Shown here piece after piece: positions 35,216 to 55,964 of a stretch of DNA of 64,000 nucleotides (the first letter of the stretch is position 1; each line of letters begins with the position of its first letter). The notes under the pieces were generated by a model. The model saw nothing but the letters and a program-made list of their open reading frames with translations, ran no database searches and was not told the DNA's origin. The stretch is from Prolixibacteraceae bacterium (lineage in GTDB: Bacteria > Bacteroidota > Bacteroidia > Bacteroidales > Prolixibacteraceae): assembly GCA_028683385.1 (NCBI GenBank), contig JAQUIJ010000004.1, forward strand, positions 89,416-153,415, written 5' to 3'. The translations under genes and the position numbers were made by a program.

Positions 35216-35258
35216 GTCGGGGTGACAAGATTTGAACTTGCGACCCCCCGCCCCCCAG
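35216..35258. repeat. attL: 43-bp direct repeat (tRNA-Pro 3' remnant)
   Basis: Begins gtcggggtgacaag and ends cgccccccag; identical base for base to 55922-55964. It contains the T arm, variable region and part of the anticodon arm of tRNA-Pro but not the 5' half, so it is not a functional tRNA. Confidence 0.95.
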
Positions 35259-35282
35259 GTGTGAAAAATATCTTTTTATTTA

Positions 35283-35312
35283 GTTGTATTCATTTATAAA
35301 TCATTATATTTG
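35283..35312 (+). promoter_or_regulatory. Candidate integrase promoter
   Basis: GTTG at 35283-35286 and TATATTTG at 35305-35312 are 18 bp apart, close to the Bacteroidota -33/-7 pattern (TTTG and TAnnTTTG). Transcription would start near 35319 and read through the left arm site into the integrase gene. Confidence 0.55.
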
Positions 35313-35367
35313 CATTGTGTATTAGTGATTTAGTTTTGTATACTTTTACATGCTTCTTTAAAATATC

Positions 35368-35385
35368 CGTCGGGAATCAGTCGGG
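35368..35385. repeat. Candidate left arm-type integrase site
   Basis: The 18-bp sequence cgtcgggaatcagtcggg is itself a tandem GTCGGG pair. It recurs with one change at 55850-55867, just inside the other end, in the same orientation. Position just inside both att sites is where tyrosine integrases bind arm sites. Confidence 0.6.
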
Positions 35386-35399
35386 CAAATTACAAGAGT

Positions 35400-36803
35400 A
35401 TGAAGGACAAATGCTATTCTTTTAAATTAGATTATTATAATGGCCATGAACTGAAGGATGGTAGTTATCCGGTAATACTTGTTGTCCGTAAAGATAACAA
35501 GCGCAAAACGATTAATTTGTCTATTTCAGCAATGATTTTTGATAATGGTGAGGATAGGTGGACTGTTGATGAAGAGAGCAAACGAAAGGTTTGGAATCCA
35601 AAAGTAAAAACTCAATGGAATTTTGACTTTCAACGATATGAGATTGATAAAAGGCGCAAAGATTTACATCCAGATAAAGAAAAGCTAAATACTTGGTTGG
35701 ACGAATTGTCTGGAAGATGCGACAAGGTGATTGAAGAATTTCAAAGGAATAAAATTGACTGGACATTGAGTCAATTTGAACAGGCACTTTTAAATAAATC
35801 TAAAAAGTCCGGAATTGAGGCTTATTTCATAAAACATATTGACTTATTGAATAGGTCTGGAAGGATCGGTAACAAGCTTTGTTACGAACAAACATTGACC
35901 TTGTTGAAGAAGTACGATAAAAATTTTGAATCTAGGTTGTTTTCAGAGATTGATTTGAAGTATGTTGAAAAGTTCAGTCAGTTTCTGGATGAAAGGGGTT
36001 GCGTAGGGAATACGAAAAAATATTACATCAAAACCTTACGGGCAATTCTAAATAAAGCAATAAAAGAAAAGGAATGTTCAGCAGTAAATTATCCATTCGG
36101 TAAAGATGGTTATTCGATTGCTGCACTTGCCCAAGAAACCAAAAAGAGATATTTGCCTGGGGAATATCTCGAAAGGCTTAAAACTACAAAGCTGGATAAT
36201 CCAAAATTAGAATGGGCCCGGAATATATTTCTTTTCTCATACTATTGCCAAGGTATGAGTATTGTCGATTTAGCAAATCTAACCAAGCAAGATATTGTTA
36301 TTGGCGAGAAAGGCCGATATATCGAATACCGTAGACAAAAAACTGAGGGTAAAAACACTAGATTCATTCGAATTAAAATAACGGATAATATTCAAAGCCT
36401 TTTAGATTGGGCAAAGAACAGTAATCTTCTGCTTGCTGATTATTTAATGCCTGTGGTAAACCGTTTGCCGAAGGATCAACCGATTGTGAAGAAAACAAAT
36501 AAGCTAAGTAAAAATAAGCCAGAGTATATTCTTACACCTGAACATCAGTTGTATCAACACATAAAAGATAGGTACAAACGCTATAATAAAACCTTGAAAG
36601 ATTTGGGCGATGAATTGAAATTTGAAGGTGTTCGGTTAAGTAGCTACATGTCACGCCATTCTTATGCTATGCGCCTGAAAAATAGTGGAATATCAGAGGA
36701 TATAATTTCTGAAGCACTTGGACATAAGGATTTATTAACTACAAAAGTATATTTGGATAGCTTCCAGAATGACGAGGTAGATAAAGCTAATGAAATGCTA
36801 TGA
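35400..36803 (+). CDS. int: Tyrosine recombinase (element integrase)
   Basis: A 467-residue integrase that catalyses insertion at the tRNA-Pro 3' end. The N-terminal 110 residues form an arm-binding domain, about 130-240 the core-binding SAM-like domain, and about 250-460 the catalytic domain. Visible catalytic residues are Arg419 in SRHSYA, His442 in LGHKD and nucleophile Tyr451 in KVYLDSF. The box I position, normally Arg in a TGLR-type motif, reads CQGMS, so Ser287 stands where Arg I is expected; this is known for the integrase of the Bacteroides element CTnDOT. The gene faces inward from attL. Confidence 0.95.
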   Translation: MKDKCYSFKLDYYNGHELKDGSYPVILVVRKDNKRKTINLSISAMIFDNGEDRWTVDEESKRKVWNPKVKTQWNFDFQRYEIDKRRKDLHPDKEKLNTWLDELSGRCDKVIEEFQRNKIDWTLSQFEQALLNKSKKSGIEAYFIKHIDLLNRSGRIGNKLCYEQTLTLLKKYDKNFESRLFSEIDLKYVEKFSQFLDERGCVGNTKKYYIKTLRAILNKAIKEKECSAVNYPFGKDGYSIAALAQETKKRYLPGEYLERLKTTKLDNPKLEWARNIFLFSYYCQGMSIVDLANLTKQDIVIGEKGRYIEYRRQKTEGKNTRFIRIKITDNIQSLLDWAKNSNLLLADYLMPVVNRLPKDQPIVKKTNKLSKNKPEYILTPEHQLYQHIKDRYKRYNKTLKDLGDELKFEGVRLSSYMSRHSYAMRLKNSGISEDIISEALGHKDLLTTKVYLDSFQNDEVDKANEML

Positions 36804-36877
36804 AAAAGAGATACAATTATTTAGCAAAAAAGGGAATGCTGTAGATAAAATAAAACTGGACTTTTAATATTTCCAAT

Positions 36878-37789
36878 ATGAATGAAGATGAATACCTGAA
36901 ATACTCGAAACTATTAAATTTGAAGGTTAGTAGTTTTGAAGATGAAAATCCTGAATTTCTAAATGAAGTAGCATCACTCCTTGAAACGGGTGATAAAATA
37001 CTCAATATCATAAACTACATCGAAAAATTAAGAACTGTTTCTGATAGAATGAATGCAGCCATAATGTATGTCTGGGTATTATATCGATACTGTAATCGAG
37101 AAGAATACATAAATGTTCAACAAGCCTATATTGATTTTAAAATTGATAATAAATCAGGTGTAATTGCGGAAAATGCAGTTTATAATCAAAAGACTTTTAT
37201 TCAACATCTTATACATAGTGGGGAGATAAATAAACTAGAATTGAAATCGATTTTATCAGATAAGAAAAAGAAAGATATTCTTTCAGGGGTAGAACGAAAA
37301 TCAACAAAAATATTAAAGTATAATCTCAAAGATATTAAAAATGAATTGATTAACACAGATCAAAGTATATCCAATGAATCAAAAGCACAGCCGGTAAATA
37401 ATAAACCCGGTAGACCTAAAAGTACTCCAAAGCCAGTTAAAGAATACATTAAAAATATTGATCCTGAGAAAATTGAGGCTTTTCTTAATGCTTTAAAATC
37501 AAAATTTATAGAATCTTCGCCAAAGGATTTTATTTTCATGATTAGAGCATTGTATTACAAACAGCTCTTAAATGTTAATGAAACATGTAGAAAAGAAGTT
37601 TGGATGTCATTTGAAACTTTTTTTGGTGGAGAATATGGTAATCCTCAAAATAAATATGAAACATGGAAAAAATCATCCCCGATTATGCCTAAAGGAGCAG
37701 AAAACACGACTCTAAATATAATTGTGAATGATATTTCAATAATTATTTCTGCATTAAATAACAAAATAGAAACAGTTAAGCTAGATTAA
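36878..37789 (+). CDS. Unknown 303-aa element protein
   Basis: Not recognised. A lysine-rich, mostly helical protein with three parts: an N-terminal helical domain (about 1-105), a middle helical segment, and after an AT-hook-like KPGRPKSTPKP linker (about 178-188) a C-terminal helical domain (about 195-303). The linker suggests DNA contact. There is no signal peptide or membrane segment. It lies between the integrase and the replication operon on the same strand, and its stop is inside a 14-bp-arm inverted repeat. A role in regulation or replication is possible; I would not name one. Confidence 0.75.
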   Translation: MNEDEYLKYSKLLNLKVSSFEDENPEFLNEVASLLETGDKILNIINYIEKLRTVSDRMNAAIMYVWVLYRYCNREEYINVQQAYIDFKIDNKSGVIAENAVYNQKTFIQHLIHSGEINKLELKSILSDKKKKDILSGVERKSTKILKYNLKDIKNELINTDQSISNESKAQPVNNKPGRPKSTPKPVKEYIKNIDPEKIEAFLNALKSKFIESSPKDFIFMIRALYYKQLLNVNETCRKEVWMSFETFFGGEYGNPQNKYETWKKSSPIMPKGAENTTLNIIVNDISIIISALNNKIETVKLD

Positions 37790-37821
37790 AATAGATTTAA
37801 TATTTAGTCTATTTTAATCTA
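37782..37821. repeat. Inverted repeat at the gene end (14-bp arms)
   Basis: TAGATTAAAATAGA (37782-37795) and its complement TCTATTTTAATCTA (37808-37821) flank a 12-nt spacer and overlap the stop codon of the preceding gene. It lacks GC content and a clear T-run, so it may be a binding site or weak terminator. Confidence 0.6.
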
Positions 37822-37858: not shown

Positions 37859-37892
37859 CATTGTGCCGTACTAATAAATACAAGGCACAATG
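37859..37892. promoter_or_regulatory. 9-bp inverted repeat containing a start codon
   Basis: CATTGTGCC (37859-37867) and GGCACAATG (37884-37892) are perfect complements 16 nt apart, and the second arm includes the ATG at 37890. As RNA it would hide the start codon; as DNA it could be an operator. Either way it probably controls the replication operon that starts here. Confidence 0.55.
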
Positions 37893-38234
37893 ACTGCAAC
37901 AAAAACTTTAGAAACACCAATTTTTCAACTGACAGTTGGAGAATTTTTAACAATCCTAAAACAAGAGCATAAATCTCCTGTTTCGATTACTCCTCAAGTC
38001 CCTGAAATATTTGGGGCTAAAACTTTCAAGGAAATTACCGGATATTCATTTGCTTCCATTTACGCAAAGACTTCCAAAAATGAACTGCCACATTTTAAGA
38101 GGGATGGGAAACTATTCTTCCGCAGAGATGAAGTTATGGATTGGCTTACTGCGAATCCAGTAGCGACTATTCAAGAAAGTTGCAATTTATTGGATGAAAA
38201 GCTTACTAAGAAGGGTAGGAGGGCCGGTATCTAA
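37890..38234 (+). CDS. Helix-turn-helix (DUF3853/excisionase-like) protein
   Basis: A 114-residue protein with an N-terminal LTVGEFL helix and a MerR/excisionase-type winged helix (about 42-95): TFKEITGYSFASIYAKTSK is the recognition region and FFRRDEVMDWL the wing and last helix. The LTVGEF opening resembles DUF3853 proteins of Bacteroidota mobile elements. Likely a DNA-binding regulator or directionality factor, heading the replication operon. The stop overlaps the next start by one base (TAATG), so translation is coupled. Confidence 0.78.
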   Translation: MTATKTLETPIFQLTVGEFLTILKQEHKSPVSITPQVPEIFGAKTFKEITGYSFASIYAKTSKNELPHFKRDGKLFFRRDEVMDWLTANPVATIQESCNLLDEKLTKKGRRAGI

Positions 38235-38560
38235 TGAAAGCACAAGGCCCCGCTTCCCCAAGCAAAGACCTTTGTACTATCGAAGACAAAGGTACAACTC
38301 ATCAAACTCAGATCCAAACCATATTTAGCTATCTACATGATCATGTTGCCACGGCCTCGATGGTAACGGATGCTACCGGCATTCCACAAAAAAATATTAC
38401 TCGCTATAAAAGGGATTTAGAGAATGCCGGAATGCTCTGGGAGATAGAGAAAAAGGATTGCAAGAAGACAGGCTGTAAAGCTTGGTATTTGACAACCAAT
38501 CCGGCAATGGCTCCAAGAAGTCAGCAGCTTGATTTATTTGGAAGGGTAGGTGTAAAATGA
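38234..38560 (+). CDS. Winged-helix protein of the replication operon
   Basis: A 108-residue protein with one winged-helix domain (about 22-95): helix-turn-helix IFSYLHDHVATASMVTDATG followed by a wing ending in WYLTTNPA. Starts of this type occur in small phage and plasmid DNA-binding proteins of Bacteroidota that govern dispersed replication genes. The CKKTGC pair of cysteines near residue 77 is unusual. Overlaps of one and four bases with its neighbours show it belongs to the operon. Molecular role unknown. Confidence 0.72.
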   Translation: MKAQGPASPSKDLCTIEDKGTTHQTQIQTIFSYLHDHVATASMVTDATGIPQKNITRYKRDLENAGMLWEIEKKDCKKTGCKAWYLTTNPAMAPRSQQLDLFGRVGVK

Positions 38561-38766
38561 TTACTGCATTACAACAACCGCAAGTATCTTATTTGCACCG
38601 TATCACAAGAATATCAGCGACCCACCATGTTATCTCAAATTTACTCACCAAAGAGATGAAGGTCATTTCAATTTACAGCACAAGATACTCATATCGTGGT
38701 AGCCCTTGGATCATCCGGTTCTCATCATCAGAAGACGCCTGTAACCGGTATGTGAATAATCTTTAA
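38557..38766 (+). CDS. Small unknown protein
   Basis: A 69-residue basic protein whose ATGA overlaps the previous stop. It has no recognised domain and looks like a small beta/alpha fold. The tight overlap on the same strand and the following gene 10 bp on make it a real operon member. Function unknown. Confidence 0.65.
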   Translation: MITALQQPQVSYLHRITRISATHHVISNLLTKEMKVISIYSTRYSYRGSPWIIRFSSSEDACNRYVNNL

Positions 38767-38775: not shown

Positions 38776-39474
38776 ATGAATGAAGGTTACATAAAACTTC
38801 ACCGACAGCTCATAGAGAGTCAGGTTTTTGCAAATCAGACAGCTTTGAAAATATGGGTTTGGTGTCTACTAAAGGCCAGTCGAAAAGAAAGGTTTTTCCC
38901 ATTGAAGATTGGCAAAGGTAGTACAACCATCAAAATCTTACCCGGTCAGTTTATATTCGGCAGATTCAAGGCAGAAGAAGAACTAAATATTGATGGATCA
39001 ACCATTTACAGATGGCTCCAAAAATTTAAATCTGAAGAGTTTAGTATGATAACCGTTGAAGCGAACAACCAATACAGTATTATAAGTATCTGTAACTGGA
39101 CTAGTTATCAAGCTGAAAAATCAGATAGTGAGCAACCAATGATCAACCAACGAACTAGACTTGAACCAGATATGAACACAGACAATACAGTTAATACAGT
39201 AAAGAAAAAAGAGAGGGTAAAATTTACTCCTCCTTCTCTCCTTGAAATTGAAACTTACTTTTCAGAAAAGATAAAAGAAAAAGGTTTGTCCATGGATCCA
39301 AAAATTGAAGCTGAAAAATTTGATGCGCATTATGGATCTATAAACTGGAAGGTAGGTAGTAACAAAATGACAGACTGGAGAAAATCAATTTCTGGATGGG
39401 TCACCAGAAACAACAAAGAACAGTCAAAACAAAAACAAGAAATCAAATTGAACATTAATCCAACATGGCAATAA
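38776..39474 (+). CDS. Phage replication-initiator-like protein
   Basis: A 232-residue protein with an N-terminal winged-helix domain (about 1-110, opening GYIKLHRQLIESQVF and containing TALKIWVWCLLKAS) of the phage replication-protein O / replisome-organizer type, then a charged linker and a C-terminal segment rich in Trp and Lys (FDAHYGSINWKVG ... WRKSISGW) like that in helicase-loading phage proteins. It directly precedes a DnaB helicase gene and overlaps it by 10 bp, which fits origin binding and helicase recruitment. No sequence identity to lambda O is claimed. Confidence 0.78.
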   Translation: MNEGYIKLHRQLIESQVFANQTALKIWVWCLLKASRKERFFPLKIGKGSTTIKILPGQFIFGRFKAEEELNIDGSTIYRWLQKFKSEEFSMITVEANNQYSIISICNWTSYQAEKSDSEQPMINQRTRLEPDMNTDNTVNTVKKKERVKFTPPSLLEIETYFSEKIKEKGLSMDPKIEAEKFDAHYGSINWKVGSNKMTDWRKSISGWVTRNNKEQSKQKQEIKLNINPTWQ

Positions 39475-40829
39475 AACAAAATATCACTGAAATAAATTCT
39501 CAATATGGCAAGGTTCCACCTCAGGCTATCGAAATGGAAGAGGCTGTCTTAGGTGCTTTGATGTTGGAAGCCGATGCAATACACAAGGTATCCGGTATTT
39601 TAACCGCTGAAAGCTTTTACAAGAATGAACATCGGATAATATTTGAAGCCGTCAAATCACTCGCAAATGCCGGAAAACAAATTGACCTATTAACAGTAAC
39701 CAGATCACTGATCGAAACAAATCAACTTGATGTCGTTGGTGGCCCGATGTATATCACCCAGCTCACTGGCAGGGTAGCAGCAGCGGCACACATTGAAGCA
39801 CATTCGCGTGTGATAGCTCAACTTCACGCACAAAGAGAATTGATCAGGATCGGCTCAGAAACGATTAATGAAGCATACGAAGAAGGAACCGACATTGAAG
39901 ATCTTTTAAATTCAGTTAAGAGTAAAATATCAGCGATTGAAGACTCTACATTAAGCTCAAATACCGGGCAATCTCACATTGATGTTATTCGGGAGACATT
40001 AAAAGAAATCGAAATTGATTGCTTACAGGCCAAAGCAGGAAAACAGCCCGGGATAACCACCGGCCTCAGAACCCTGAATAACGCGACGGGAGGATGGAGG
40101 AATACGAATTTAATCATTGTGGCAGCAAGGCCAGGTGTGGGTAAAACCAGTTTAGCACTTCATTTTGCAAAGATGGCAGCCAGAGCCGGGAACTTTGTTA
40201 ATTTTTATGGTCTGGAAATGAAGTCTTCTGACTTAATGCGGATAATGATCAGTGGTGAATCCTCTGTAAATAGACTCCTGATTAGGGACGGTAAGATAGA
40301 TAGCAATGATTGGAGCTCAATTAATCGTTCATTGACAAGCTTTGAAAAGCTGCCTATCATTTGGAATGATTGTGCTACATTAACTGCATCTCAAATCAAA
40401 TCAAATACCATCAGAAACAGAAAGGCCGGAAAATGTGATTTGATAATTATCGACTACTTGCAGCTCATTAAGGCAACTGACAAGAAAGCAATACGGGAGC
40501 AACAGATTAGCGAGATTAGCCGGACATTAAAGGAAATAGCATTATCTGAAAACATACCTGTTATTTGCCTTTCTCAGCTCAATAGAGCAGCTGCCGGAGA
40601 GAAGCCGCAATTACATCATCTTCGTGAATCCGGTGCCATAGAACAGGACGCGGACATCGTTATCTTCCCTTGGCGCAATGAAGCTGATAACAGATTTTAC
40701 ATTTCAATTGCAAAAAACCGGAGGGGAACTTGTGGTGACTTTGAAATATTCGCCAATGAAGAAATGACCGGGTTTACAGATGCACAACAAGATGAGAGCT
40801 ACAACCCAGACAACTCAAAACCATTTTAA
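39465..40829 (+). CDS. dnaB: Replicative DNA helicase, DnaB family
   Basis: A 454-residue hexameric helicase homologue. The N-terminal helical DnaB domain (about 15-115) opens with VPPQAIEMEEAVLGALML. The RecA-like domain has Walker A ARPGVGKTS (about 221-229), Walker B LIIIDYLQLI near 325 and the GAIEQDADIV segment near 390. It is about the length of a chromosomal DnaB but lies in the element operon, so it probably drives element replication with the preceding initiator. Presence of a full helicase argues against a simple integron-like or IS-derived element. Confidence 0.95.
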   Translation: MAIKQNITEINSQYGKVPPQAIEMEEAVLGALMLEADAIHKVSGILTAESFYKNEHRIIFEAVKSLANAGKQIDLLTVTRSLIETNQLDVVGGPMYITQLTGRVAAAAHIEAHSRVIAQLHAQRELIRIGSETINEAYEEGTDIEDLLNSVKSKISAIEDSTLSSNTGQSHIDVIRETLKEIEIDCLQAKAGKQPGITTGLRTLNNATGGWRNTNLIIVAARPGVGKTSLALHFAKMAARAGNFVNFYGLEMKSSDLMRIMISGESSVNRLLIRDGKIDSNDWSSINRSLTSFEKLPIIWNDCATLTASQIKSNTIRNRKAGKCDLIIIDYLQLIKATDKKAIREQQISEISRTLKEIALSENIPVICLSQLNRAAAGEKPQLHHLRESGAIEQDADIVIFPWRNEADNRFYISIAKNRRGTCGDFEIFANEEMTGFTDAQQDESYNPDNSKPF

Positions 40830-40868: not shown

Positions 40869-41294
40869 ATGAAAACTTTAAGTAAAAATTTCAATGGAAG
40901 TATTTTAAATTTTAAATGGAGTAAGGGAAATGGGTTTCTTCCTATGTCCAACAGTTTGCTTATTCATGTCGGTTTGCCGAACACAGCAGATTACATTGAC
41001 AAAGTGTATGACCTACTTGGCGCCTATCAATACAGTAAGGTGTTAAGATTTGTAGCATATCTTGAAGACATCAGCATTAAGACAGCCCGTAAAAGATTGG
41101 TTAATTACCTGTTAATGGACTTTGGATGTAGAATAACATGGTCTGGAAAATTTAAAAACTCTGATTTTATTTTCAATAGGGACTACATCATTGGATTGAA
41201 TGGAAGTGATTATAATCTGAATACCAATCGGAAGATAGTTCAAATGACTAACAAACTTGGGTTCAATATTGATTATAAAGCACCACAAATCTAA
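40869..41294 (+). CDS. Unknown 141-aa protein, paralogous to the next gene
   Basis: Not recognised by family. The last 90 residues (YQYSKVLRFVAYLEDISIKTARKRLVNYLL onward, in short form KVLRF ... ARKRLVNYLL) align by eye with the protein encoded at 41,317: an RKR segment, a hydrophobic strand, then IGLN before the C-terminus. No signal peptide or catalytic motif is seen. Located after the helicase on the same strand, it may be an accessory replication or exclusion protein. Function unknown. Confidence 0.7.
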   Translation: MKTLSKNFNGSILNFKWSKGNGFLPMSNSLLIHVGLPNTADYIDKVYDLLGAYQYSKVLRFVAYLEDISIKTARKRLVNYLLMDFGCRITWSGKFKNSDFIFNRDYIIGLNGSDYNLNTNRKIVQMTNKLGFNIDYKAPQI

Positions 41295-41316
41295 TCACAT
41301 ATTAATTTGTTTCTTC

Positions 41317-41736
41317 ATGAATGAAATTACAATTCAAATCAGTGGATTCCCGGTCCATCTTTCAAAAGATGCCAGCGGCCAATACAAAGCAAATGTTGAT
41401 GATCTGTGCTCATTCTCAGGCTTGAAATCAGCCAGTACCACCGAAGCTATGCGGAAACTATATCAATTCTTGATAGATGGCCATTTTGAAGGGGCATGTA
41501 AATGGGTGAGTTACAATGAGGACATTCTGTGTTGTACTTCAAGAAAACGAATATTACGGTTTCTTTTGACTAGTGCTTCTTGCATTTTATTATTTGGAAT
41601 TTCGCAAGAACATGTGAAACGAGACATTGAAATATTGTGCGATTTCATATCCGGACTTAATCAGCATCAATATAATATCAACGACATAGTGGATTTGATA
41701 ATATCGGAAGGCTGCAACATTGATTCAGATCATTAA
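41317..41736 (+). CDS. Unknown 139-aa protein, paralogous to the previous gene
   Basis: I place the start at the ATG at 41317; the frame opens earlier but the upstream codons overlap the previous gene and look non-coding. The C-terminal part parallels the previous protein (EGACKWVSYNEDI, SRKRILRFLL, ISGLNQHQYN versus IIGLNGSDYN), so the two arose by duplication and diverged strongly. The N-terminus differs (ITIQISGFPVHLSKDASG). It is the last plus-strand gene before a strong hairpin. Function unknown. Confidence 0.7.
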   Translation: MNEITIQISGFPVHLSKDASGQYKANVDDLCSFSGLKSASTTEAMRKLYQFLIDGHFEGACKWVSYNEDILCCTSRKRILRFLLTSASCILLFGISQEHVKRDIEILCDFISGLNQHQYNINDIVDLIISEGCNIDSDH

Positions 41737-41739
41737 ATA

Positions 41740-41773
41740 AACTATGGCAGCTCAAAATTGAGCTGCCATAGTT
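41740..41773 (+). terminator. Strong 16-bp-arm hairpin after the replication operon
   Basis: AACTATGGCAGCTCAA and its perfect complement are separated by 2 nt. It directly follows the operon end. There is little T-run, so it may act as an RNA-stabilising or binding site instead. The centre contains the CAAAATTG core repeated four more times downstream. Confidence 0.65.
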
Positions 41774-42500
41774 AAGATATTTATGCTTTGAAAATCATTA
41801 TCCATATCAAAAGGATATAAAAAGTATCATTTGCACTAAAAATGCCAAAAGTCGTAATTGCGATAATATCTAATTATCAGGCAATTAGCAAATATTCAAA
41901 AAAGCTTATTATTTAATCCAAATATCAATTCATATCAATCAATAATACATTGAATATTAATATGATACCACGAGTATTATTGAAGAAAAACAATCTAAAA
42001 TCAAACAAGAATATAGAATTGATATTTATTGCTGAATATTCAGATCAATTATCTCCACCATCAGCGCGGAAAACGTGCCTGTTTTTATGCTTTTCGATAC
42101 GACTGATATTTCCAAATATCCATTCTACTTAATACATAAATGGGGGGCTCCCCAAAATTGAGGATACGCTCTGGAAGCAATGTAAAATATTAAAAATGAA
42201 CAATGATTGAAAATTTAGATGATAAATTACTTTGTGGGGATGTCCACCAGACTGACACCCCTTAAAAATGATATTTATTTTATTCTAAGTTAAAATCAAG
42301 AGTCTTAAAATCAATGATATTACGGCTTCTACTTAGGTAGCCCTATGCTCAACATAGCCCTATCTTCTTCGTGTTATTTCATTGTGAATAAACACCATAC
42401 AGTTTAAAATCTATCATACTAAAATATTTCCTTCAACTCTCCTGTCTTTGAGCCTGAACAACACTTTTGACTTTTGAAAGAATCAGTAATAAGGATTCAT
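41774..42500. other. Gene-poor AT-rich stretch
   Basis: About 730 bp without a convincing gene. A 60-codon frame at 41950-42132 has no recognisable features and I treat it as chance. A GGGG-ggct-CCCC hairpin and a CAAAATTG site lie at 42142-42160, and a TATG ... CATA repeat near 42350. It may hold decayed genes or an origin; nothing more specific is visible. Confidence 0.5.
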
Positions 42501-46729: not shown

Positions 46730-49700
46730 TTACTGTTTGCCAAAATACTTGTACTTGCTTACAAACCCCCTGCGTAATCCTAAGATTTGAAGATCGATAA
46801 CTTTATTTTCATCTTCGTCAGTTGTCGTCTTTTTCAAGTCCAAGAGTGATTTGATTTCATCATTTGTCATTTCATAATCGATAAGAAATTCACTTTGATT
46901 ATCTGATATTTCAGGAATTCTATCTGGATCATTGGTTTGATTCCGTCTATCATTTTCAAACTTTAATTCCTCTGCCTTGTTTGCAATCTCTCGGTATTCG
47001 TCATACATGAACCCGGTATACTTCTTGTGGTAATACGTTTGAAGGATCGGAATACTTGTTGGGTCAAATCCTTCAATTTTATGTTCCCTGTCTTTTATTT
47101 GTTTGTCAAGATCATCAACGGTCTTCAGTATCATGTAATTGGCCGCATCTAAAACGGTTTGGCCGGGGCCACCGGTGTATGACTTCAGAATATATTCTAT
47201 TTTAGCAGGGTTCCAGTCATATTTTTCAAGGATACGTTTGCCTTTTATCGTTTTTGTTCCAAGTTCCGGATCTCCACCGCCTTGTTTGTACAACCAATTT
47301 GTAAATGAAACGATCATTGCATTGGTAATATTGAAGTGCATCTGGCTGTCAGCAAATTTCCCTTGTTGACTTTTAAGAAATGGTTCGCGGAATATTGGTT
47401 TCTTTCTGTAATCCTCGTTAGTCGAAATATCCATTAATGGCTCAATTGCACTGAATAAAGAACCTGCAACCTTTGGGGCAGATAATTTACCTTCCTTATT
47501 GAATACCCCGCTAATTTCAACTGGAGATAATGCTTGTGAGAAAACCTCAGCCATATCGAAAGACATTTGTTCCGTGGATAGTCTGCCGGTGTGATGTTCA
47601 TACATTGCAACACCAAGCGCATTCCAAACACGGTATCCCTGAGCTAATGGGATACTCACATAATTATCCTTCCATCCAATGACAGTATTGTTGTACATGG
47701 TGTATTTGTTAATTTCTGCATAATCCTTATCATCATCGTCACCATTTAATAAATCCCATAGGTATCTGGATAATAAGCCCTGAATTACGAGAGAAACGGC
47801 ATTTATGGCAAAGTACCTGAAAGTATGGTTCTTTGCTAAATCGTATTGTTTTGCGGCTCCTTGAATGGAAGCATTGAAGAACATGATGAACGATCCGATT
47901 GTGGCAGAATATTCACCCCTTGCATCGAAGTTTGTAGTAATTTCCTTTGCTTCATTGATCGACATGATAATCGATTCACCTCTTTCTCTTGCCATGGCAT
48001 AAGCAGTAAACCTGGCAATACTTTCACCGTATCCGGCCAATCCTTCCATTAACCTTAAAGCATTTAACGGATTCGAAAGTCTGGCAAGACTGCTTGATCC
48101 ACTTCTTTTGATGTGTCTAATGTATCTTTCAACCTTTGATTTTACTTCATCAAGTGGCATCAAATAAGCTTGTCCGGTTGGTCCACCATTCAGGTTATAT
48201 TCTTCATACAATTTTTTCCACTTCTTTTCTTCCTCTGTCTTTGGCTCAACGCCCATAAGATCAAGTAATTTATCGCCTGTTTTACTTGAATTGCGCCAAG
48301 CATCATTCAGCATGTTTGAAGCTAGAAAACGGGCTGCAACCGTGTATTTAGCCTGAAATTTTAGACCGTCTTTGAATCCCCTTTGAATAAACATTGTTTT
48401 TGCACCGGTCTTGAAGTCACGATATGTATTTGAGGTTATAAATGATGGTCTCCATGATGTGATACTCCTTGACATGAAGCGCGTAATGCTTGCAATCGGA
48501 AGGTATTTAAAGTTGATTGACTGAGAATAATTGTCACCGTTTATCGCGTTTGCAATAGCCGGATCTTTAAAAATCATCTTAAATCGATTTCCATCCACAT
48601 AAACATCAACCTCATGTTGTTTCCGCAAGTATGTTGGTTTTTCGCTCATTGGGTTCGATATTCTTGACGAAGAGAATGTATATCCACTCGCTTCCAAAAC
48701 ACTCTTAAAACCAAGCTCGGTTTTCTTCGTATTACCCTCCTCGTCGGTATTCATCAGGAATACTTTATGGTCAGGCTTATCGTTACCCTTTTGATCCTTA
48801 AAGGTGCCGGACGTTTCATAAACCACTTCTGTTACCATGCCCAGCTTATCGGACATGTAATTCATCTGGGACATCTCAAACAAGTCTTTCCTGTTACTGT
48901 TTAGCTTGATCAAATTGTAAGCTGACCTTTTAGCCCTATTCTTTTCCCCCCACATTATCGCGGATGTTGCCATTTGATAAATGTATGCAATAGGATCATC
49001 TGCCATACTTTCACGGCCTTCTGTTTTTTCATCCCCGGAAAACTCGCTTCGTTTTTCTGATTTTTCGTAGTCAAGCTGTATTTCTTCAGCTATTGGCTCA
49101 AATCCTCTCAATGGAACGTAGTATTTCCAATTTCTTGCTACTACTGTATTTAGAGAATCCTGAGTATACTTGCCGTATTCAACCCAATAGCGGGCAATTC
49201 TTCCGGTGCATTCGCGCGTATTTGTCCAAAGCTTATCAATCAACTCCCGTGGAATTTCGCTTTCGAATTTTTCATAGATTGCTATTGCCTGGTCGTCTGT
49301 CATTCCGGAGAAGTTATTTCCTTTTTTACCCTGAGAACGAAACCAACTATTACGTTCTGGGGCATGTCTGGCGATCATGTATTCTTGGACTTTTTTATAG
49401 GCTTCTTCGTTTTTTAAACCTTTCTTTTCCAGTACGGCCATGATATTCTCTACCGAACTTAGCATTGGATTGAATAGCTTCTTTTCAAAATGAGTCTTCT
49501 GTCCCATCTGCCGGGAACTTTTCTGATTCACAGCAAGGAAGATGTTCGCGTAATCCGGAACTTTTAAATCAAACTTTTCAAGTAGTATTTTAATTGAGGT
49601 ATTGCCATTAATGAAGCGAGAAACAAAGCGGTCTGTTTTTGTTCTTACTTTCTGTGGCATTCTTTTTTGTTTGACACGGACAGATGCTGCTTCAAGAAGA

Positions 49701-52666
49701 GAAGATAACGGCTCTGGACCTTTCTTGAAGTTAACGTCGGAATCCGTACTATCTAATTCGTGATTCGATTCAGGAGTGTTTAGTCTTGAATCCTCTTCAT
49801 TGGCAGACTTGGTTCTGATCCTGTCCAGAATCCGTCCTGATCGAACGTCAGTTTCTTTCCTTCCATTGGTCTGATCCTGATATTGTCCTCCAATGCCTCC
49901 TTCGCTTCCATCAACGTTACGTTGTTCTCCTTTGCGTAGGCTTCCGCGTCCTCTCTCATTACTACGGGAATGCTCATTTTCTTGAAAATTAGATTGAACA
50001 GAAACATGAATAATATCAATAAGTTGCCCTTCCGTTAAAAGACCACCATTAAAGTTATACAATTTTGAAAGTAAAGCTCGAAGATATTTAATCGTTTCAT
50101 TCCAAATGGATTTTACTTCTGGGTTTAAATCTTCTCTGGAAACGATCTTCTCAGACAGACTAGCCAGCAATTCTTCGCCTCTAACCTGTTTGGTAGTTCC
50201 GGTATACTCTCTGTTAACCCAATCGAATAGTTCCTTAATTTCCGGCTTAATTTCGGCAATTTTTCTGAAGCTCTCATAAACCTGAACCATAAGTAAATTT
50301 CGCTCATTTGTCGGCAAAATGTTTCTCAATCCATTATGAACCCCGTTCTCATGTATCCATATTGCAACAAGGTGGTCAACTGATTTTATCTTATCGGCCA
50401 TGACGTAAACTTTGTCATTATACCATACCCCATAAAAACCAAGTGAAAATAAGCTGTGATTTCTTATCGCTGCCGGAAGTTCATCCACTGATTGAACAAG
50501 AATAACTGGTGCCGCGCTTGGCGCAATAGATTGAAGTTCATCAATCTTGGATTGCATTTCTTCAACTGTTGGAGTTTTGCTAGATATATTGAATGAAAAT
50601 TCGTTGCTTGTTATATTATTTTTCGAACTTTCTTGATTGTCATCTATAACACTAGTCTGATTATCAAATAGTTGATCTGTAATGTCGGAAACATTTCTAG
50701 GTTTAGTTTCTAAATTGTTTTCATTTTGTGCAACCGGAACTATTTTAATGCTTTTGATAACGACTCTTTTGATCGGATCGTCGTATTTTGTTTCGCCAGG
50801 TTCTTCGATCTGTGATTTCTCAGAAACGACCTTGAATTTCTTGTTATCCTTGAATTTCTTCTCGAGAATTGGCAAGGCTCTTTCAAGCGGAACTTTGTCG
50901 GTCGGAACAACTTCGTCGTATTCTTCACCTTCAATAATATCAATAGGAGTATTCCCGAACGACTGAGTAGTAATCTTTCGTCCTGTCTTAGGCTTGTTTT
51001 GTTTGGATTGTTCCCATGATGCAATTTCTTTATTTGATACTTCAATCGCTTGTTCGTTTTCATCCAACCAAAATTCACCATCATCAGTTATTGAATTTGG
51101 GTCGTTTGTTCTAGTAAGTAATCTACCCTGTGCATCGATCATCTGGTTGTTCGCAGCCATCAGTTTTTGTTGTTCGACCTGATCATATTCGCTCATCTTG
51201 CCATTTACCCAATCATCGACGCTAATTTCCTGAACTTCTCCTTCGTTGCCTACGGGTTTGTAAAACATTGGCGATCCGTCTGGATTCTTGGCAATATTGC
51301 CCTGTTCATCTTTTAAAAGAAATCCTCCGGTTGCATCTGTTTGAGCAACAAACATTGGTGTATTTTTTTCATAGCCCGGTGTAATGACATTGACGATTGT
51401 TATTTTCCCGGTTTCCGGATGAATGATATTGTCTGTAAATTGTCTGAGTTCGGCTTCTTTAGTGTTGCGTGGATTAATTGTGAACTGTGGAGCAGTGTCG
51501 GGAGATGCCGGGCCGGATGGTTGTTGCGAACCGGGCTGTTTTTCTTCCATGGCCTTTTTTGCAAGTCCAATAACTGCTCCATGTATTCCTCCCATACCAA
51601 CACCAGAAAGAAATGAATCACCAACACCTTCAGTTAAGTTTAGATTTGGTTTGTATCCTGAATATTTATCGACAAAGTTTTGAGAAATCTGTGTTCCAAC
51701 TTCTTCTAATCCTTCACCAAGCGGTGCCAACCATGGATTTTTAGTGATCATGTCAGCAAACAAAGTACTCATTGACCTTTTCACAGACTGTTGAGCGACC
51801 TCTTTGCCTTCATTCTTAATGATTCTGGCCAACGATTTTCCGACGGCACCAGAGCCAAGGTAAGTCTCAAATACTCCCTCCAACGTTCCGTTGAGTGCTG
51901 CGATTACTCTTCTTTTGTCGTAGTCCATTTCTGGCGCATTCTCATCCATTTCCTGAGCTTTTCCGGCTCCGAATATTGCTGCGCCTCCAATGATTGTTGG
52001 TGCCGTTGCGCCTCCTGAAAGCATCATTGCGATAGATGCCGGTGCGCTTTCTGCGATTCCACCAAGTAAATTCAAGACTCCACCCTCAATATCTCCATTT
52101 TCAAACGATGTGATAACGCCGTTTCCTCTTGATGGATTGGCCTGTTCTACCTTTTGTTCGTATGCCTTTGCATTATCCTTGTAAAAATTAGATATGCCTT
52201 GAAGTGGGGTATCTTTAAAATCCTGTGATGTTGGAACACTTAACCCAATTGCCCGGAATGGTGCGCCGGCTAGATCATAAACAAATGCAGGAGCATCAGA
52301 AGCCCATGAGTTTAGGTTATTCATCCCTGTCATAAAGCTATTTCCGACCGTACTTCCAATTTTTCCAACAAATCCCTGTTCTTCTTCTGGTTTTTCAGTA
52401 GGTGCATTTTTTGCAACAACTGAATCTTCCGTATAATTTTCGGGGAATTTCTGCCTTAACTCTTTTTGCATGAAAGTTAATGGCTGTTCTGCTTCAGGCT
52501 GTATTTGATAAAATGAAACCTGATCTCTGTATTCAGGGTATTTTTCAATAATCTTTTTTGCAAGAGTAAGATCATCTACATCTTTATAATCAGGGTATTT
52601 GGCTTTAACCATACTTGAAAAATCCTGAAAATTTACCGGTTTTTGTGCAATTTCCTGTTCTGTCAT
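46730..52666 (-). CDS. Giant 1978-aa polyvalent phage-type protein (LPD38-like region)
   Basis: The largest gene in the element. The N-terminus holds a motif KYPDYKDVDDLTLAKKI (about 24-40) repeated in part soon after, as in phage internal proteins. Gly/Ala-rich membrane-active-looking segments lie at about 200-240 and 350-370. IHENGVHNGL near residue 775 resembles the HE-x-GVH metallopeptidase-like motif of giant phage proteins. Residues about 1400-1660 (TSNTYRDFKTGAKTM, LARLSNPLNALRLMEG, GSFIMFFNASIQGA) resemble LPD38 of polyvalent proteins, followed by hydrophobic RYLWDLLNGDDDD. Such proteins are carried in virions and injected with DNA. Domain names are from memory. Confidence 0.8.
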   Translation of the reverse strand: MTEQEIAQKPVNFQDFSSMVKAKYPDYKDVDDLTLAKKIIEKYPEYRDQVSFYQIQPEAEQPLTFMQKELRQKFPENYTEDSVVAKNAPTEKPEEEQGFVGKIGSTVGNSFMTGMNNLNSWASDAPAFVYDLAGAPFRAIGLSVPTSQDFKDTPLQGISNFYKDNAKAYEQKVEQANPSRGNGVITSFENGDIEGGVLNLLGGIAESAPASIAMMLSGGATAPTIIGGAAIFGAGKAQEMDENAPEMDYDKRRVIAALNGTLEGVFETYLGSGAVGKSLARIIKNEGKEVAQQSVKRSMSTLFADMITKNPWLAPLGEGLEEVGTQISQNFVDKYSGYKPNLNLTEGVGDSFLSGVGMGGIHGAVIGLAKKAMEEKQPGSQQPSGPASPDTAPQFTINPRNTKEAELRQFTDNIIHPETGKITIVNVITPGYEKNTPMFVAQTDATGGFLLKDEQGNIAKNPDGSPMFYKPVGNEGEVQEISVDDWVNGKMSEYDQVEQQKLMAANNQMIDAQGRLLTRTNDPNSITDDGEFWLDENEQAIEVSNKEIASWEQSKQNKPKTGRKITTQSFGNTPIDIIEGEEYDEVVPTDKVPLERALPILEKKFKDNKKFKVVSEKSQIEEPGETKYDDPIKRVVIKSIKIVPVAQNENNLETKPRNVSDITDQLFDNQTSVIDDNQESSKNNITSNEFSFNISSKTPTVEEMQSKIDELQSIAPSAAPVILVQSVDELPAAIRNHSLFSLGFYGVWYNDKVYVMADKIKSVDHLVAIWIHENGVHNGLRNILPTNERNLLMVQVYESFRKIAEIKPEIKELFDWVNREYTGTTKQVRGEELLASLSEKIVSREDLNPEVKSIWNETIKYLRALLSKLYNFNGGLLTEGQLIDIIHVSVQSNFQENEHSRSNERGRGSLRKGEQRNVDGSEGGIGGQYQDQTNGRKETDVRSGRILDRIRTKSANEEDSRLNTPESNHELDSTDSDVNFKKGPEPLSSLLEAASVRVKQKRMPQKVRTKTDRFVSRFINGNTSIKILLEKFDLKVPDYANIFLAVNQKSSRQMGQKTHFEKKLFNPMLSSVENIMAVLEKKGLKNEEAYKKVQEYMIARHAPERNSWFRSQGKKGNNFSGMTDDQAIAIYEKFESEIPRELIDKLWTNTRECTGRIARYWVEYGKYTQDSLNTVVARNWKYYVPLRGFEPIAEEIQLDYEKSEKRSEFSGDEKTEGRESMADDPIAYIYQMATSAIMWGEKNRAKRSAYNLIKLNSNRKDLFEMSQMNYMSDKLGMVTEVVYETSGTFKDQKGNDKPDHKVFLMNTDEEGNTKKTELGFKSVLEASGYTFSSSRISNPMSEKPTYLRKQHEVDVYVDGNRFKMIFKDPAIANAINGDNYSQSINFKYLPIASITRFMSRSITSWRPSFITSNTYRDFKTGAKTMFIQRGFKDGLKFQAKYTVAARFLASNMLNDAWRNSSKTGDKLLDLMGVEPKTEEEKKWKKLYEEYNLNGGPTGQAYLMPLDEVKSKVERYIRHIKRSGSSSLARLSNPLNALRLMEGLAGYGESIARFTAYAMARERGESIIMSINEAKEITTNFDARGEYSATIGSFIMFFNASIQGAAKQYDLAKNHTFRYFAINAVSLVIQGLLSRYLWDLLNGDDDDKDYAEINKYTMYNNTVIGWKDNYVSIPLAQGYRVWNALGVAMYEHHTGRLSTEQMSFDMAEVFSQALSPVEISGVFNKEGKLSAPKVAGSLFSAIEPLMDISTNEDYRKKPIFREPFLKSQQGKFADSQMHFNITNAMIVSFTNWLYKQGGGDPELGTKTIKGKRILEKYDWNPAKIEYILKSYTGGPGQTVLDAANYMILKTVDDLDKQIKDREHKIEGFDPTSIPILQTYYHKKYTGFMYDEYREIANKAEELKFENDRRNQTNDPDRIPEISDNQSEFLIDYEMTNDEIKSLLDLKKTTTDEDENKVIDLQILGLRRGFVSKYKYFGKQ

Positions 52667-52668
52667 GG

Positions 52669-53889
52669 TTAAAATCCTCCTTTTGGTACGCCTTTTAAAT
52701 TGTGTGGATTCTCTTGAAATAATGTTGGAACTTTTTTGGTCGCATTTGCTTTAGGAGTTGGAATGTCAGAAAAATCCAATTTTGAATAATCAACTTTCGG
52801 TGCCACATGATTTTTTTCTGATTGATTATTCTGGAACAATCCAAGAGGATCGGCTTTTGTTGCTTTTGGTGCTGATTGTTGGGTATGTTGAGAAACGACA
52901 TTCTTTACCGGCTTGGTTGAAAGACCTTGTTCATTCCTGTGTTGATCAAGGTATCTTTGTTCATTTTGTTTTAAGACTTCAGGAGATGGGGGTGTTGGAT
53001 TTTCTTCCATCTCAATATCTGCCCGTACCAAATCATCGTCTTTTATGTCTGGATTAAGTGATGTAACGAATTGACCCGGAATAGGCTTGTTGTACTTATT
53101 GAGCTTAGGCGTATCGATGAACATATTTTTAAACCGGGTCTTCAATAGTTCGCTATTCTTTAATGCCCTTTCCCTTCTGAAAGAATATTCGGCAGGTGAA
53201 ATCTCGTGAGTGGCGTATTTTGTTTGAATTATCTTTGGACGATCTGCTTTGTTTGCCCGAATCATTACAGACTTCTCTATTGCCTGATTGTGTTCTTTTA
53301 GGTTATCTATCGATTGTTGTTTTTGTCTTAACCCTGCAAGAAACTTACTATTTTCAAGTGCTGTTTTAGCTTCATTATTCTTTTCAATTGCTGCTTGTCT
53401 TCGATTAGCAAAATCCTGTGCTGTTTCTTTATCTGCTCGCTGTATTCCATACTGAGCGTTTTGTCTATTGACGGAGAAGTCACGAAGATTATAATCATCG
53501 GTCTGATCTCGGTATTTATCAAGCGTATTCTGGTAGCTTTGAAATAAAGCCGGTGCCGTTGAATCGGGTTGTCTTTTACGAACATTTGCGCCCATGGCAG
53601 TTCCGGCAATGTCAGCTAATACTTTTGTTTCCTGAGCGAGTTGATTAAGCCTACCCATGCGCCTTAAACGATCTACTTTAGCCTGATCTATTTCGGGTGC
53701 CTTCTCCTTTACGTCATAGAACGATTGAAGAAGTTCTTCGTGAGTTTTTGGTTTGGGTCTGGATCTTAATTTCTCTTCTTTGGGTGTAATCGTTGAATCT
53801 GGCTGGATTAATGATTGCTCAGGATCGTATTTAGCTCCATATCCGGGGTTTTCAGGATTATCATCCTCAAAATTATAATTGAAACTCAT
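52669..53889 (-). CDS. 406-aa coiled-coil partner of the giant protein
   Basis: A charged, Gln/Asn/Lys-rich, mainly helical protein. The N-terminus is disordered; a conserved-looking block DQAKVDRLRRMGRLNQLAQE (about 78-95) precedes ADIAGTAMGANVRKRQ and a long coiled coil (about 130-230) with repeated RxxAxxGIQRADKET heptads; the C-terminus is disordered and Pro-rich. Proteins with the RRMGRLN block occur next to giant proteins in Bacteroidota phages, as I recall. Its stop is 2 bp before the giant gene, so the two form an operon and probably a complex. A virion or injection role is inferred. Confidence 0.75.
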   Translation of the reverse strand: MSFNYNFEDDNPENPGYGAKYDPEQSLIQPDSTITPKEEKLRSRPKPKTHEELLQSFYDVKEKAPEIDQAKVDRLRRMGRLNQLAQETKVLADIAGTAMGANVRKRQPDSTAPALFQSYQNTLDKYRDQTDDYNLRDFSVNRQNAQYGIQRADKETAQDFANRRQAAIEKNNEAKTALENSKFLAGLRQKQQSIDNLKEHNQAIEKSVMIRANKADRPKIIQTKYATHEISPAEYSFRRERALKNSELLKTRFKNMFIDTPKLNKYNKPIPGQFVTSLNPDIKDDDLVRADIEMEENPTPPSPEVLKQNEQRYLDQHRNEQGLSTKPVKNVVSQHTQQSAPKATKADPLGLFQNNQSEKNHVAPKVDYSKLDFSDIPTPKANATKKVPTLFQENPHNLKGVPKGGF

Positions 53890-54359: not shown

Positions 54360-55070
54360 ATGAGAACAACATCAACCATTTACATTTATTTCCTACTTAT
54401 TCTATTGACAATAGCTTTTGGTAGCTGTAAGTCAGATAGCAATGAGGATCCGCTTGCCAACAATAAAGGTGAAGCAACTGATATTGATGGCAATGTTTAT
54501 AAAACAGTTACCATTGGAACTCAGGTTTGGATGGCTGAAAACCTAAAAACTACTAAATATCGAAATGGTGATCCGATACCAAATGTAACCGGTTCAGTTA
54601 CCTGGGTTAATCTAAAGACTGGAGCATTGTGTGATTACAATAATTCTCAAAACAGTTCTGCAAAATATGGTAAACTTTATAATTGGTATACGGTAGTCGA
54701 CAGTAGAAATATTGCGCCCATAGGTTGGAGAGTTGCATCAAATTCTGACTGGGAAACTTTAATACTGCATTTAGGTGGGGAAAATATGACTGGTGGAAAA
54801 TTAAAGGAAACAGGTGTTTTAAACTGGGTAAGTCCTAATTTTGGTGCTACAAATTCCAGTGGTTTTACTGCTTTGCCTTCAGGTGGAAGAGGCGATCATG
54901 GTGATTACTTTGGAATTGGAGAAGTTGGCAATTGGTGGACAACTGATAATCCAACAACCCTGTCTGACGATATGGCTTGTACTACCTACATTTATTCAAA
55001 TGAGGAAAGTTTGGGTAGAACTTTTACTAATAGATATGTAGGGTTTTCTGTTAGATGTATAAAAGAATAA
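54360..55070 (+). CDS. FISUMP-domain lipoprotein
   Basis: A 236-residue lipoprotein: lipobox FGSC near residue 22 followed by a short acidic linker. Residues about 38-234 form the Fibrobacter succinogenes major paralogous (FISUMP) domain, with TIGTQVWMAENLKTTKY, PIGWRVASNSDWETL, TGFTALPSGGR-like (here SGFTALPSGGR) and the C-terminal GFSVRCIKE signature. FISUMP proteins are surface-exposed and numerous in Bacteroidota; their role is largely unknown. In the element it is probably cargo that alters the host surface, possibly receptor masking; that is inference. Confidence 0.9.
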   Translation: MRTTSTIYIYFLLILLTIAFGSCKSDSNEDPLANNKGEATDIDGNVYKTVTIGTQVWMAENLKTTKYRNGDPIPNVTGSVTWVNLKTGALCDYNNSQNSSAKYGKLYNWYTVVDSRNIAPIGWRVASNSDWETLILHLGGENMTGGKLKETGVLNWVSPNFGATNSSGFTALPSGGRGDHGDYFGIGEVGNWWTTDNPTTLSDDMACTTYIYSNEESLGRTFTNRYVGFSVRCIKE

Positions 55071-55088
55071 AATAGTGGAGGAAATAAA

Positions 55089-55478
55089 ATGAAGATCGTG
55101 GCCTATCTGCTAGCTTTTGTTCTGACTTTTTCCGTGGGTGCATTAATTGCCGGTCTGATAACCTTTATACCGACGATGATTCATGCTTATATCTATAAAA
55201 AAGTAAATGGTTTTTGGGAATCATTTATGTCTGGAGGATTAGAGTGCTTTGTTTTAATTCTATTGTCTATGTGGATATTCAGTTGGTTTAATTTTCATCT
55301 GCCTTTATTGTATGTAATCATAATTTCCATTGCCTTTTTATCGAACAATTATCATCGATTGCAAACAAGATCAAACTATAATTCCGAGCTTGGATATTTG
55401 GTTGCTCAATCGTTTGGATTTTTAGGTGTTTATCTAAGCTTTATACTAAATGAAGCGATACCGTTCAATTTCTTATAA
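55089..55478 (+). CDS. Unknown inner-membrane protein
   Basis: A 129-residue protein with four likely membrane helices (about 2-28, 45-65, 73-92 and 105-125). No family recognised. It lies 19 bp after the FISUMP gene and overlaps the next frame, so the three look like one small operon at the right end of the element. Superinfection-exclusion proteins often look like this, but nothing specific supports that. Confidence 0.7.
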   Translation: MKIVAYLLAFVLTFSVGALIAGLITFIPTMIHAYIYKKVNGFWESFMSGGLECFVLILLSMWIFSWFNFHLPLLYVIIISIAFLSNNYHRLQTRSNYNSELGYLVAQSFGFLGVYLSFILNEAIPFNFL

Positions 55479-55755
55479 GCAAGACATGCGCGATTTTGAT
55501 ATACTACAAATTCAGAAGGATAGAATAAAAAAGCAAAAAAGAGATTTAGCTATTAAAAAAATCATTTCTTGTTTGCCAAGAATCAATAAACCAACATCCA
55601 CGTTTTGGATTTGCTTCTCAATTCTTATTGCTTCAATTCTTATTGCCGGAGCCATTTACATATCTGGAAGAGATAATGGGAGGTATGAATATCAACATGG
55701 TTTAGTCATTGACAAAAAAACAGGTATCGCAAAGAGAATTAGTATTGTGGATTAG
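55450..55755 (+). CDS. Small single-pass membrane protein
   Basis: A 101-residue protein with a basic N-terminus (KDRIKKQKRDLAIKK), one membrane helix (about residues 52-71, FWICFSILIASILIAGAIY) and a short C-terminal tail. Two starts are possible: ATG 55450, overlapping the previous gene, or ATG 55486, giving 89 residues. I cannot choose between them. Function unknown. Confidence 0.65.
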   Translation: MKRYRSISYKQDMRDFDILQIQKDRIKKQKRDLAIKKIISCLPRINKPTSTFWICFSILIASILIAGAIYISGRDNGRYEYQHGLVIDKKTGIAKRISIVD

Positions 55756-55849
55756 AGCTAATCAAAATTATCATGAGACAATCCCTGCATTTTTTATTCT
55801 TATCCAGTGGGTTTGAAAATAGAAAAAGTGTAGGTATCTATGTCGTAAA

Positions 55850-55867
55850 CGTCGGGAATCCGTCGGG
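55850..55867. repeat. Candidate right arm-type integrase site
   Basis: cgtcgggaatccgtcggg matches the left site at 35368-35385 in 17 of 18 positions and has the same orientation. It lies 54 bp inside the right att copy. Confidence 0.6.
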
Positions 55868-55874
55868 ATATAAT

Positions 55875-55908
55875 AAAAAAAAGAGTTACAAAATTAATCG
55901 TAACCCTT
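55875..55908 (-). terminator. Element-borne terminator for tRNA-Pro
   Basis: On the minus strand AAGGGTTAC ... GTAACTCTT forms a 9-bp stem (one G-T pair) followed by a T-run at 55880-55875. It stands where transcription from tRNA-Pro would need to end now that the original terminator lies 20 kb away. Confidence 0.75.
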
Positions 55909-55921
55909 TGATATTCAATTA

Positions 55922-55964
55922 GTCGGGGTGACAAGATTTGAACTTGCGACCCCCCGCCCCCCAG
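55922..55964. repeat. attR: 43-bp direct repeat within tRNA-Pro
   Basis: Identical to 35216-35258. It forms the 3' part of the intact tRNA-Pro gene, so integration leaves the tRNA functional. Confidence 0.95.

Follow-up and report, generated by a model that had tools for sequence, protein, structure and literature searches.

Phage satellites integrate at host sites by means of their own integrase, carry replication and switch genes, and lack a complete virion gene set. The kinds covered in one review include P4-like satellites, phage-inducible chromosomal islands (PICIs), capsid-forming PICIs (cfPICIs), PLE, PICMI, VEIMEs, tycheposons and soil satellites, with a typical size of 6-18 kb (PMC11389934). 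Known satellites steer the packaging or the capsid size of a helper phage, or bring a capsid; cfPICIs make their own capsids (PMC11389934). In other respects, the ejection of internal virion proteins ahead of the DNA has been proposed for podoviruses and crassviruses (PMC10172136). Here, we focus on an element of 20,749 bases (positions 35216-55964) from Prolixibacteraceae bacterium (assembly GCA_028683385.1, contig JAQUIJ010000004.1), located in a stretch of 64,000 nucleotides that was analysed as a whole and is called the window; its positions are used throughout, and handles such as G004 or G038:C20 designate genomes and their contigs. The element has defined ends at an integration site, replication and switch genes, and a two-gene block (g20 and g21) with relatives among virion proteins of podovirus type; shell, portal and large-terminase (TerL) genes were not detected in it, related elements recur in other genomes, and part of the giant gene is conserved. 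We consider it to be probably an integrative phage satellite.

Compared with the satellites described so far, the present elements are larger (20.7-27 kb) and reside in Bacteroidota, and the window element carries virion proteins of the ejection/polyvalent type and no recognised gene for capsid-size control or packaging redirection. A small terminase (TerS) is encoded by one relative. With regard to cfPICIs, the likeness lies in a satellite bringing part of the particle itself, whereas here the part brought consists of injected proteins, and no capsid, portal or TerL gene accompanies them. In the open-licence literature, we found neither a satellite with its own ejection or internal virion proteins nor a Bacteroidota satellite on point.

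The preliminary description, made from the letters alone, held the element to be complete at both ends, and this is borne out by a perfect 43-bp direct repeat (35216-35258 and 55922-55964) that corresponds to a tRNA 3' end, by an integrase recognised by profile, and by arm-like 11-mers near both ends:

35216-35258, no strand: attL, 43-bp copy of the tRNA-Pro 3' end, perfect direct repeat
55922-55964, no strand: attR, the right copy, being the 3' end of tRNA-Pro(ggg) (55922-55996, - strand), inside which it lies
35365-35378, no strand: arm-like site of the left end, 11-mers recurring at 55850-55868, putative function
55850-55868, no strand: arm-like sites of the right end, 11-mers, putative function
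35400-36803, + strand: tyrosine integrase, 467 residues (Phage_int_SAM_5 3.7e-17, Phage_integrase 1.6e-11)

The element thus bounded has its own integrase and attachment (att) sites, like phage satellites, and a G+C content of 36.7% versus 42.3% for the rest of the window. In the one-contig genome of G001, which belongs to the same genus, the same flanking neighbours lie about 6 kb apart with a single att copy and without the element. The approximately 6 kb found there at the tRNA-Pro locus (L168:3103-8270) consist of other, unrelated accessory genes, which points to a possible hotspot of integration. No match to the element DNA was found among phage and plasmid records.

The replication operon and repressor switch read in the preliminary description were likewise confirmed by profile searches:

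38776-39474, + strand: DnaD-like helicase loader, 232 residues (phrog_2514 9.5e-26; same PHROG in G038:C20 and G458)
39465-40829, + strand: DnaB replicative helicase, 454 residues (DnaB_C 5.1e-69; 43% with the second DnaB that this genome encodes)
43911-44492, - strand: ORF6N antirepressor, 193 residues (ORF6N 1.1e-35, phrog_4792 3.3e-34)
44497-44778, - strand: Cro/C1-type repressor, 93 residues (HTH_26 5e-14, phrog_8 4.6e-15)

All 24 open reading frames (ORFs) chosen in the element were scanned against Pfam and all against PHROG, at E-value limits of 1, 0.1 and 0.01. As had been read from the letters, neither scan matched a family of terminases, portals, capsid or tail proteins, or relaxases. 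A complete virion gene set is therefore missing, as in phage satellites, and so are the TerL, portal and major capsid genes that characterise a temperate prophage. Pfam scans of the window ORFs gave neither the relaxase nor the type IV secretion genes of an integrative and conjugative (ICE) or integrative and mobilizable element (IME), and these two candidates were rejected for lack of a relaxase match. Hallmark genes of satellites are AlpA and Rpp for PICIs, the P4 primase, Psu and Sid for P4-like satellites, and a capsid operon for cfPICIs. None of these names appears among the Pfam and PHROG matches, dedicated satellite models not having been run.

The giant gene and its partner occupy the right part of the element:

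46730-52666, - strand: g20, 1978-residue giant of polyvalent/ejection type (LPD38 3.2e-17, phrog_14770 1.2e-81, viral relatives)
46730-49579, - strand: residues 1030-1978 of g20, C-terminal virion-protein module (AlphaFold2 pTM 0.68; LPD38 at 47096-47731)
50012-50599, - strand: residues 690-885 of g20, predicted zincin-like peptidase region (motif at residue 772), from its likeness to regions of phage giants
51407-52441, - strand: residues 76-420 of g20, N-module, also present in G038:C20, in G024 and in phage giants, whereas G004 has a different one
52669-53889, - strand: g21, 406-residue partner of g20, with relatives adjoining the giant gene in G004, G024, G458 and the prophage G038:C11

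The g20 ORF is intact, and its LPD38 domain lies inside a large multidomain protein, as expected of a phage-type polyvalent or ejection protein. The AlphaFold model of the C-terminal module (pLDDT 73, pTM 0.68) matched predicted phage proteins along the whole module when compared with BFVD, the top one being a podoviral LPD38 protein (TM 0.68, E 6.1e-38). Foldseek gave no match to this module in the PDB (best E 0.18), and a profile search of PDB sequences returned chance-like matches only. The HExxxH motif of zincin type is found in some of the phage-giant regions matching residues 690-885, for example in L110 and L115. The model of the N-module (pLDDT 53) was too poor and was not interpreted. 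As for g21, it had no significant family match in Pfam or PHROG and none at all among phage records. Judged from sequence, g20 is a protein of phage-internal type, in agreement with the preliminary description, and g20/g21 match the ejection or cargo block of podovirus-like phages. The promoter that the same description had assigned to the giant gene was not retained: a Bacteroidota promoter consensus gave 4 matches in the window where 3.4 were expected; of these, one lies upstream of the integrase, another upstream of 44908 and none upstream of g21, and promoter claims were dropped for this reason.

Relatives of g20 were detected by tblastn in 129 of 50,697 phage records (40 of the 129 are listed). 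Among them, gp69 of phage JC1 (22.8% identity, E 2e-21) is represented by 51 unique peptides in CsCl-purified virions in Table 6 of the JC1 study, where the two proteins encoded just upstream of it were likewise detected (PMC9144972). In Bacteroides phage BS-TP4, an annotated portal gene follows the giant gene. A profile of the C-terminal module retrieved 428 IMG/VR stretches encoding a relative. In the best 80 of these 428, a portal gene was found in 69, at a median distance of 15 bp from the giant gene and within less than 1 kb in 67 of the 69; since IMG/VR contigs are preselected as viral, and since the hidden Markov models (HMMs) for portal, TerL and candidate major capsid protein (MCP), seeded from two or three prophages, were rebuilt on the same loci, 69/80 does not represent an unbiased rate. 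The 11 loci without a portal comprise 8 with TerL or candidate MCP matches and 3 with neither. The N-terminal motif of g20 recruited 25 viral loci, none of which has a portal or TerL by these HMMs within the stretches examined, a result that counts against a clean picture. Two near-identical contigs, L035 and L036, which look crAss-like by eye, carry both the N-terminal motif and the C-terminal module in giants of 2314 and 2484 residues. As they possess the C-terminal module without a portal match, the portal gene is not always near the giant gene in phages.

The giant-portal phages of podovirus type (the prophage G038:C11, JC1 and BS-TP4) thus share with the window element a giant related to the C-terminal module of g20 and, in G038:C11, a g21 relative beside it, but they encode their own portal, terminase and capsid. 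A likeness to the cargo proteins of crassviruses, which are large, packed inside the virion and thought to be ejected (PMC10172136), is suggested by L036, which shares the N-terminal motif and also matches the C-terminal module. Crassviruses, however, encode a whole virion. These relatives also bear on the idea that the element is mobilizable and moves by conjugation, g20 being an injected effector that resembles conjugative polyvalent proteins. Such proteins do occur in conjugative elements too, but LPD38 is listed in the polyvalent-protein survey from phage-type proteins only (PMC5512222); most of the viral relatives examined adjoin portal genes, and with no relaxase among the Pfam matches of the window ORFs, this idea is very unlikely.

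In bacteria, g20 relatives occur at 13 chromosomal places in 12 genomes: the family set of 140 genomes contributed 4, the order set of 393 contributed 8 and the class set of 395 contributed 3, with overlap between the sets and the window genome included every time. A portal gene is present at four places, namely, G038:C11, G158, G273 and G330 (a 348-residue piece on a 9-kb contig), and three are not judgeable: G369:C20 (a cut contig with an integrase-like ORF), G402 (a fragment near a contig end) and G783 (a 3.6-kb contig). At the six others, no portal, TerL or candidate MCP gene was seen. They are the window element, G004:C69, G038:C20 and G146:C31, together with G024:C164 and G458:C89, both of which are cut by contig ends, and span five genera and three bacterial families. 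The HMMs for these three proteins matched none of the six at E values up to 1, whereas prophages were matched, and phrog_156 and phrog_2 had no match on the six contigs, those of G038 falling on C11 and C22. For C20 and G146, ten further ORFs each were scanned against PHROG, while the shell-less status of G004 and G024 rests mainly on the HMMs; the label MCP for G038:C11 is our own, its PHROG (26635) having no known function.

Three of the six have both ends and sit at different tRNA genes: the window element at tRNA-Pro, G038:C20 at tRNA-Cys (14-nt repeat, 26.3 kb) and G146:C31 at tRNA-Asp (22-nt repeat, 27.1 kb). The ends of the latter two did not appear in exact-repeat searches and were found by searches aimed at tRNA ends. 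Neither approach revealed att sites in G004:C69 (DMSQ01000014.1, from the Prolixibacteraceae metagenome-assembled genome UBA9940), the sole whole-g20 match among genome contigs, which, judged by eye, is flanked by host genes, the integrase end facing mnmE. Integrase domains are supported in the window, G004, C20 and G458; in G146, a truncated piece was tested, and its arm-binding domain is under the cut-off. The phrog_2514-type loader is shared by the window, C20 and G458, and G146 has a primase-type protein in place of DnaB. Among the elements, TerS is encoded only by G038:C20 (phrog_51, 1.1e-22), and the search for packaging redirection further gave a weakly matched HTH-type protein in G146 and nothing in the window. 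Shell-less elements therefore recur, three of them with both ends, as phage satellites do, although the sequence relation among some of them is partial. Of note, homologous acyltransferase-type host genes were seen by eye near C20 (about 3.4 kb from the integrase) and G458 (0.3 kb), which suggests one integration site common across bacterial families.

The preliminary description had named a case that would speak against it, in which relatives are plain prophages and only this copy is truncated. This is not what was found: since shell-less relatives exist in other genera and families, three with both ends, the element is not one truncated prophage. Decay of a whole lineage, in which the giant gene is a leftover of a temperate podovirus ancestor that has lost its genes for morphogenesis, would agree with the phage-type replication and switch genes, and with the full prophage G038:C11, which has a related ejection block in the same bacterial family. 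Comparison with G004 argues otherwise. From residue 700 to the end of g20 (1278 codons), dN (nonsynonymous divergence) is 0.026 and dS (synonymous divergence) 0.227, a ratio of about 0.12, and this part of the intact giant is under purifying selection. With the ends intact at three different tRNA genes, and the same gene classes missing in all six elements, two of them contig-cut, lineage decay is judged unlikely on the grounds of selection, ends and recurrence.

The same comparison reveals a mosaic. Residues 101-700 of g20 are 23-49% identical by 100-residue block (dS 1.3 or more), and DnaB is 81% identical with saturated dS. At the DNA level, 46646-50622 and 52953-53257 are 92.9% and 95.7% identical, respectively, while the alignable backbone ranges from 72% to 81%, except for 26-53-base pieces at 83-100%. 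From this pattern, elements whose replication genes have diverged much further appear to have recently exchanged a cassette made up of the C-terminal module plus part of g21. We read such an exchange as possible matching to a common helper particle, the N-module then being a swappable payload.

A further explanation is a self-sufficient phage of a kind not yet known, whose capsid and packaging genes have diverged beyond recognition. Candidates would be the unmatched ORFs g2 (303 residues), g8, g9, g10 and g19; apart from g21 (406 residues), however, no unmatched ORF exceeds 303 residues, which leaves little space for TerL, portal, capsid and tail genes, and the g21 relative of prophage C11 adjoins separate portal, TerL and candidate capsid genes. 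This explanation is highly improbable.

Among the two options of the preliminary description, the helper-dependent satellite with its own injected protein fits best and is partly supported, given the shell-less relatives and the phage-internal type of the giant. Beyond the single element, we tentatively propose, as a possibility falling somewhat short of an even chance, a Bacteroidota satellite family using the shell and packaging motor of a helper together with its own DNA-ejection and payload proteins, in which the virion-docking C-terminus matched to the helper is kept and the N-terminal payload swapped. Infection by the helper would lead to derepression through the ORF6N antirepressor and the Cro/C1 repressor, upon which the element would excise and replicate by means of DnaD/DnaB. 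The TerL of the helper would package it into the podovirus shell, and its own g21 and g20 would be loaded at the portal, replacing the giant protein of the helper or beside it. At the next infection, g21/g20 would exit ahead of the DNA, ease its passage across the envelope and perhaps carry in the peptidase or some other payload. The helper, the packaging signal and packaging itself are what we infer in this scheme.

A resident helper of the podovirus giant-portal type was rejected: of the portal families, phrog_156 alone was searched in the host genome of 54 contigs and gave no match, and the two weak matches to phrog_2 (E 5.3e-4 and 0.006) are probably due to chance. It follows that a helper of this type would have to arrive as a phage infecting the cell.

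Several observations weigh against the satellite reading, beginning with this missing resident portal. In the window copy, neither a TerS nor a packaging signal was recognised, and with 20.7 kb here and 26-27 kb in two relatives, the elements exceed the typical size range. The best relatives of the C-terminal module, G004 aside, are 34-36% identical and point to no known helper phage, and the whole-g20 search of viral contigs gave none. Furthermore, the six shell-less elements are not, by sequence, one uniform family. Relatives of g21 occur in the window, G004, G024, G458 and prophage C11 but were not detected in C20 or G146, whose upstream partners are alike by position only. Between C20 and the window, the N-module of g20 alone is related (57% over 347 residues). 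A 168-residue protein of G146 weakly matches phrog_1440 (0.0012), whose label is virion structural protein. In addition, the G146 giant has the C-terminal module and scores 920 bits with the giant of prophage C11 versus 268 bits with g20; its PHROG matches bear the labels minor head and virion structural protein, as expected of an internal virion protein. A gp14-like protein has HMM support in G458 alone among the shell-less elements, other such labels being given by eye or position.

The size of the giants raises another possibility, namely, an interference island in which g21/g20 are made upon phage infection and poison or reprogramme the particles of the invader, transfer of the island itself being secondary. 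Giants have 1734-3101 residues in the five shell-less elements with a whole gene versus 3373-4973 in three prophages, and two relatives have defence-type cargo (TIR in G146, SocA/Panacea in G024). Size is no clean sign, however, given the short giants of the viral contigs L035 and L036; PADLOC gave no match among the ten window proteins tested, and the replication module would be superfluous for pure defence. We regard an interference island as quite unlikely.

A satellite that brings the injected proteins alone would divide a phage particle into a shell and an injector, with entry controlled by the satellite and not by the helper, and could also account for the shuffling of giant polyvalent proteins between phages. 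The present element, being small and having its giant gene apart from any virion operon, would offer a cleaner setting than a full phage to study the loading of ejection proteins.

With regard to the cargo of the relatives, the TIR protein of G146 has a Thoeris-like match (L059:5379-6332), and the protein of G024 carries a SocA/Panacea antitoxin domain (L016:7794-8288). In C20, a lipoprotein-like protein of 201 residues near the integrase (L012:11738-12343) shares sequence with the 452-residue partner of the giant (phmmer 5.5e-17). G024 has, on a contig of 5.1 kb (G024:C385, L176), another stretch that weakly resembles g21 (E 1.8e-5).

The remaining genes of the window element are as follows:

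36878-37789, + strand: g2, 303-residue protein adjoining the integrase (no Pfam, PHROG or PADLOC match)
37890-38234, + strand: excisionase-type HTH_17 protein, 114 residues (HTH_17 1.6e-5, under the Pfam cut-off; phrog_66 0.0012)
38234-38560, + strand: winged-helix-like protein, 108 residues (tblastn relatives in G004, 74%, and G038:C20, 37%; weak HTH-type matches)
38557-38766, + strand: 69-residue ORF (G004 relative 46%; no family match)
40869-41736, + strand: g8 and g9, two small proteins (no significant family match)
42501-43045, - strand: g10 and g11, small ORFs (no assignment from Pfam and PHROG scans)
43288-43914, - strand: g12 and g13, two small proteins (g13 HTH_17 2.3e-8)
44908-45847, + strand: g16-g18, three small proteins (G004 relatives with 74%, 73% and 40% identity)
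45917-46402, - strand: g19, 161-residue ORF (no match)
54360-55755, + strand: FISUMP (Fib_succ_major) lipoprotein-like cargo gene and two small ORFs (PF09603 8.3e-45; others no strong match)

A 21-nt direct repeat (95%) at 45235-45255 and 45640-45660 lies upstream of two small genes and possibly represents operator sites. Inverted repeats at 37782-37821, after g2, and 41729-41784, after g9, resemble terminators of the left operon.

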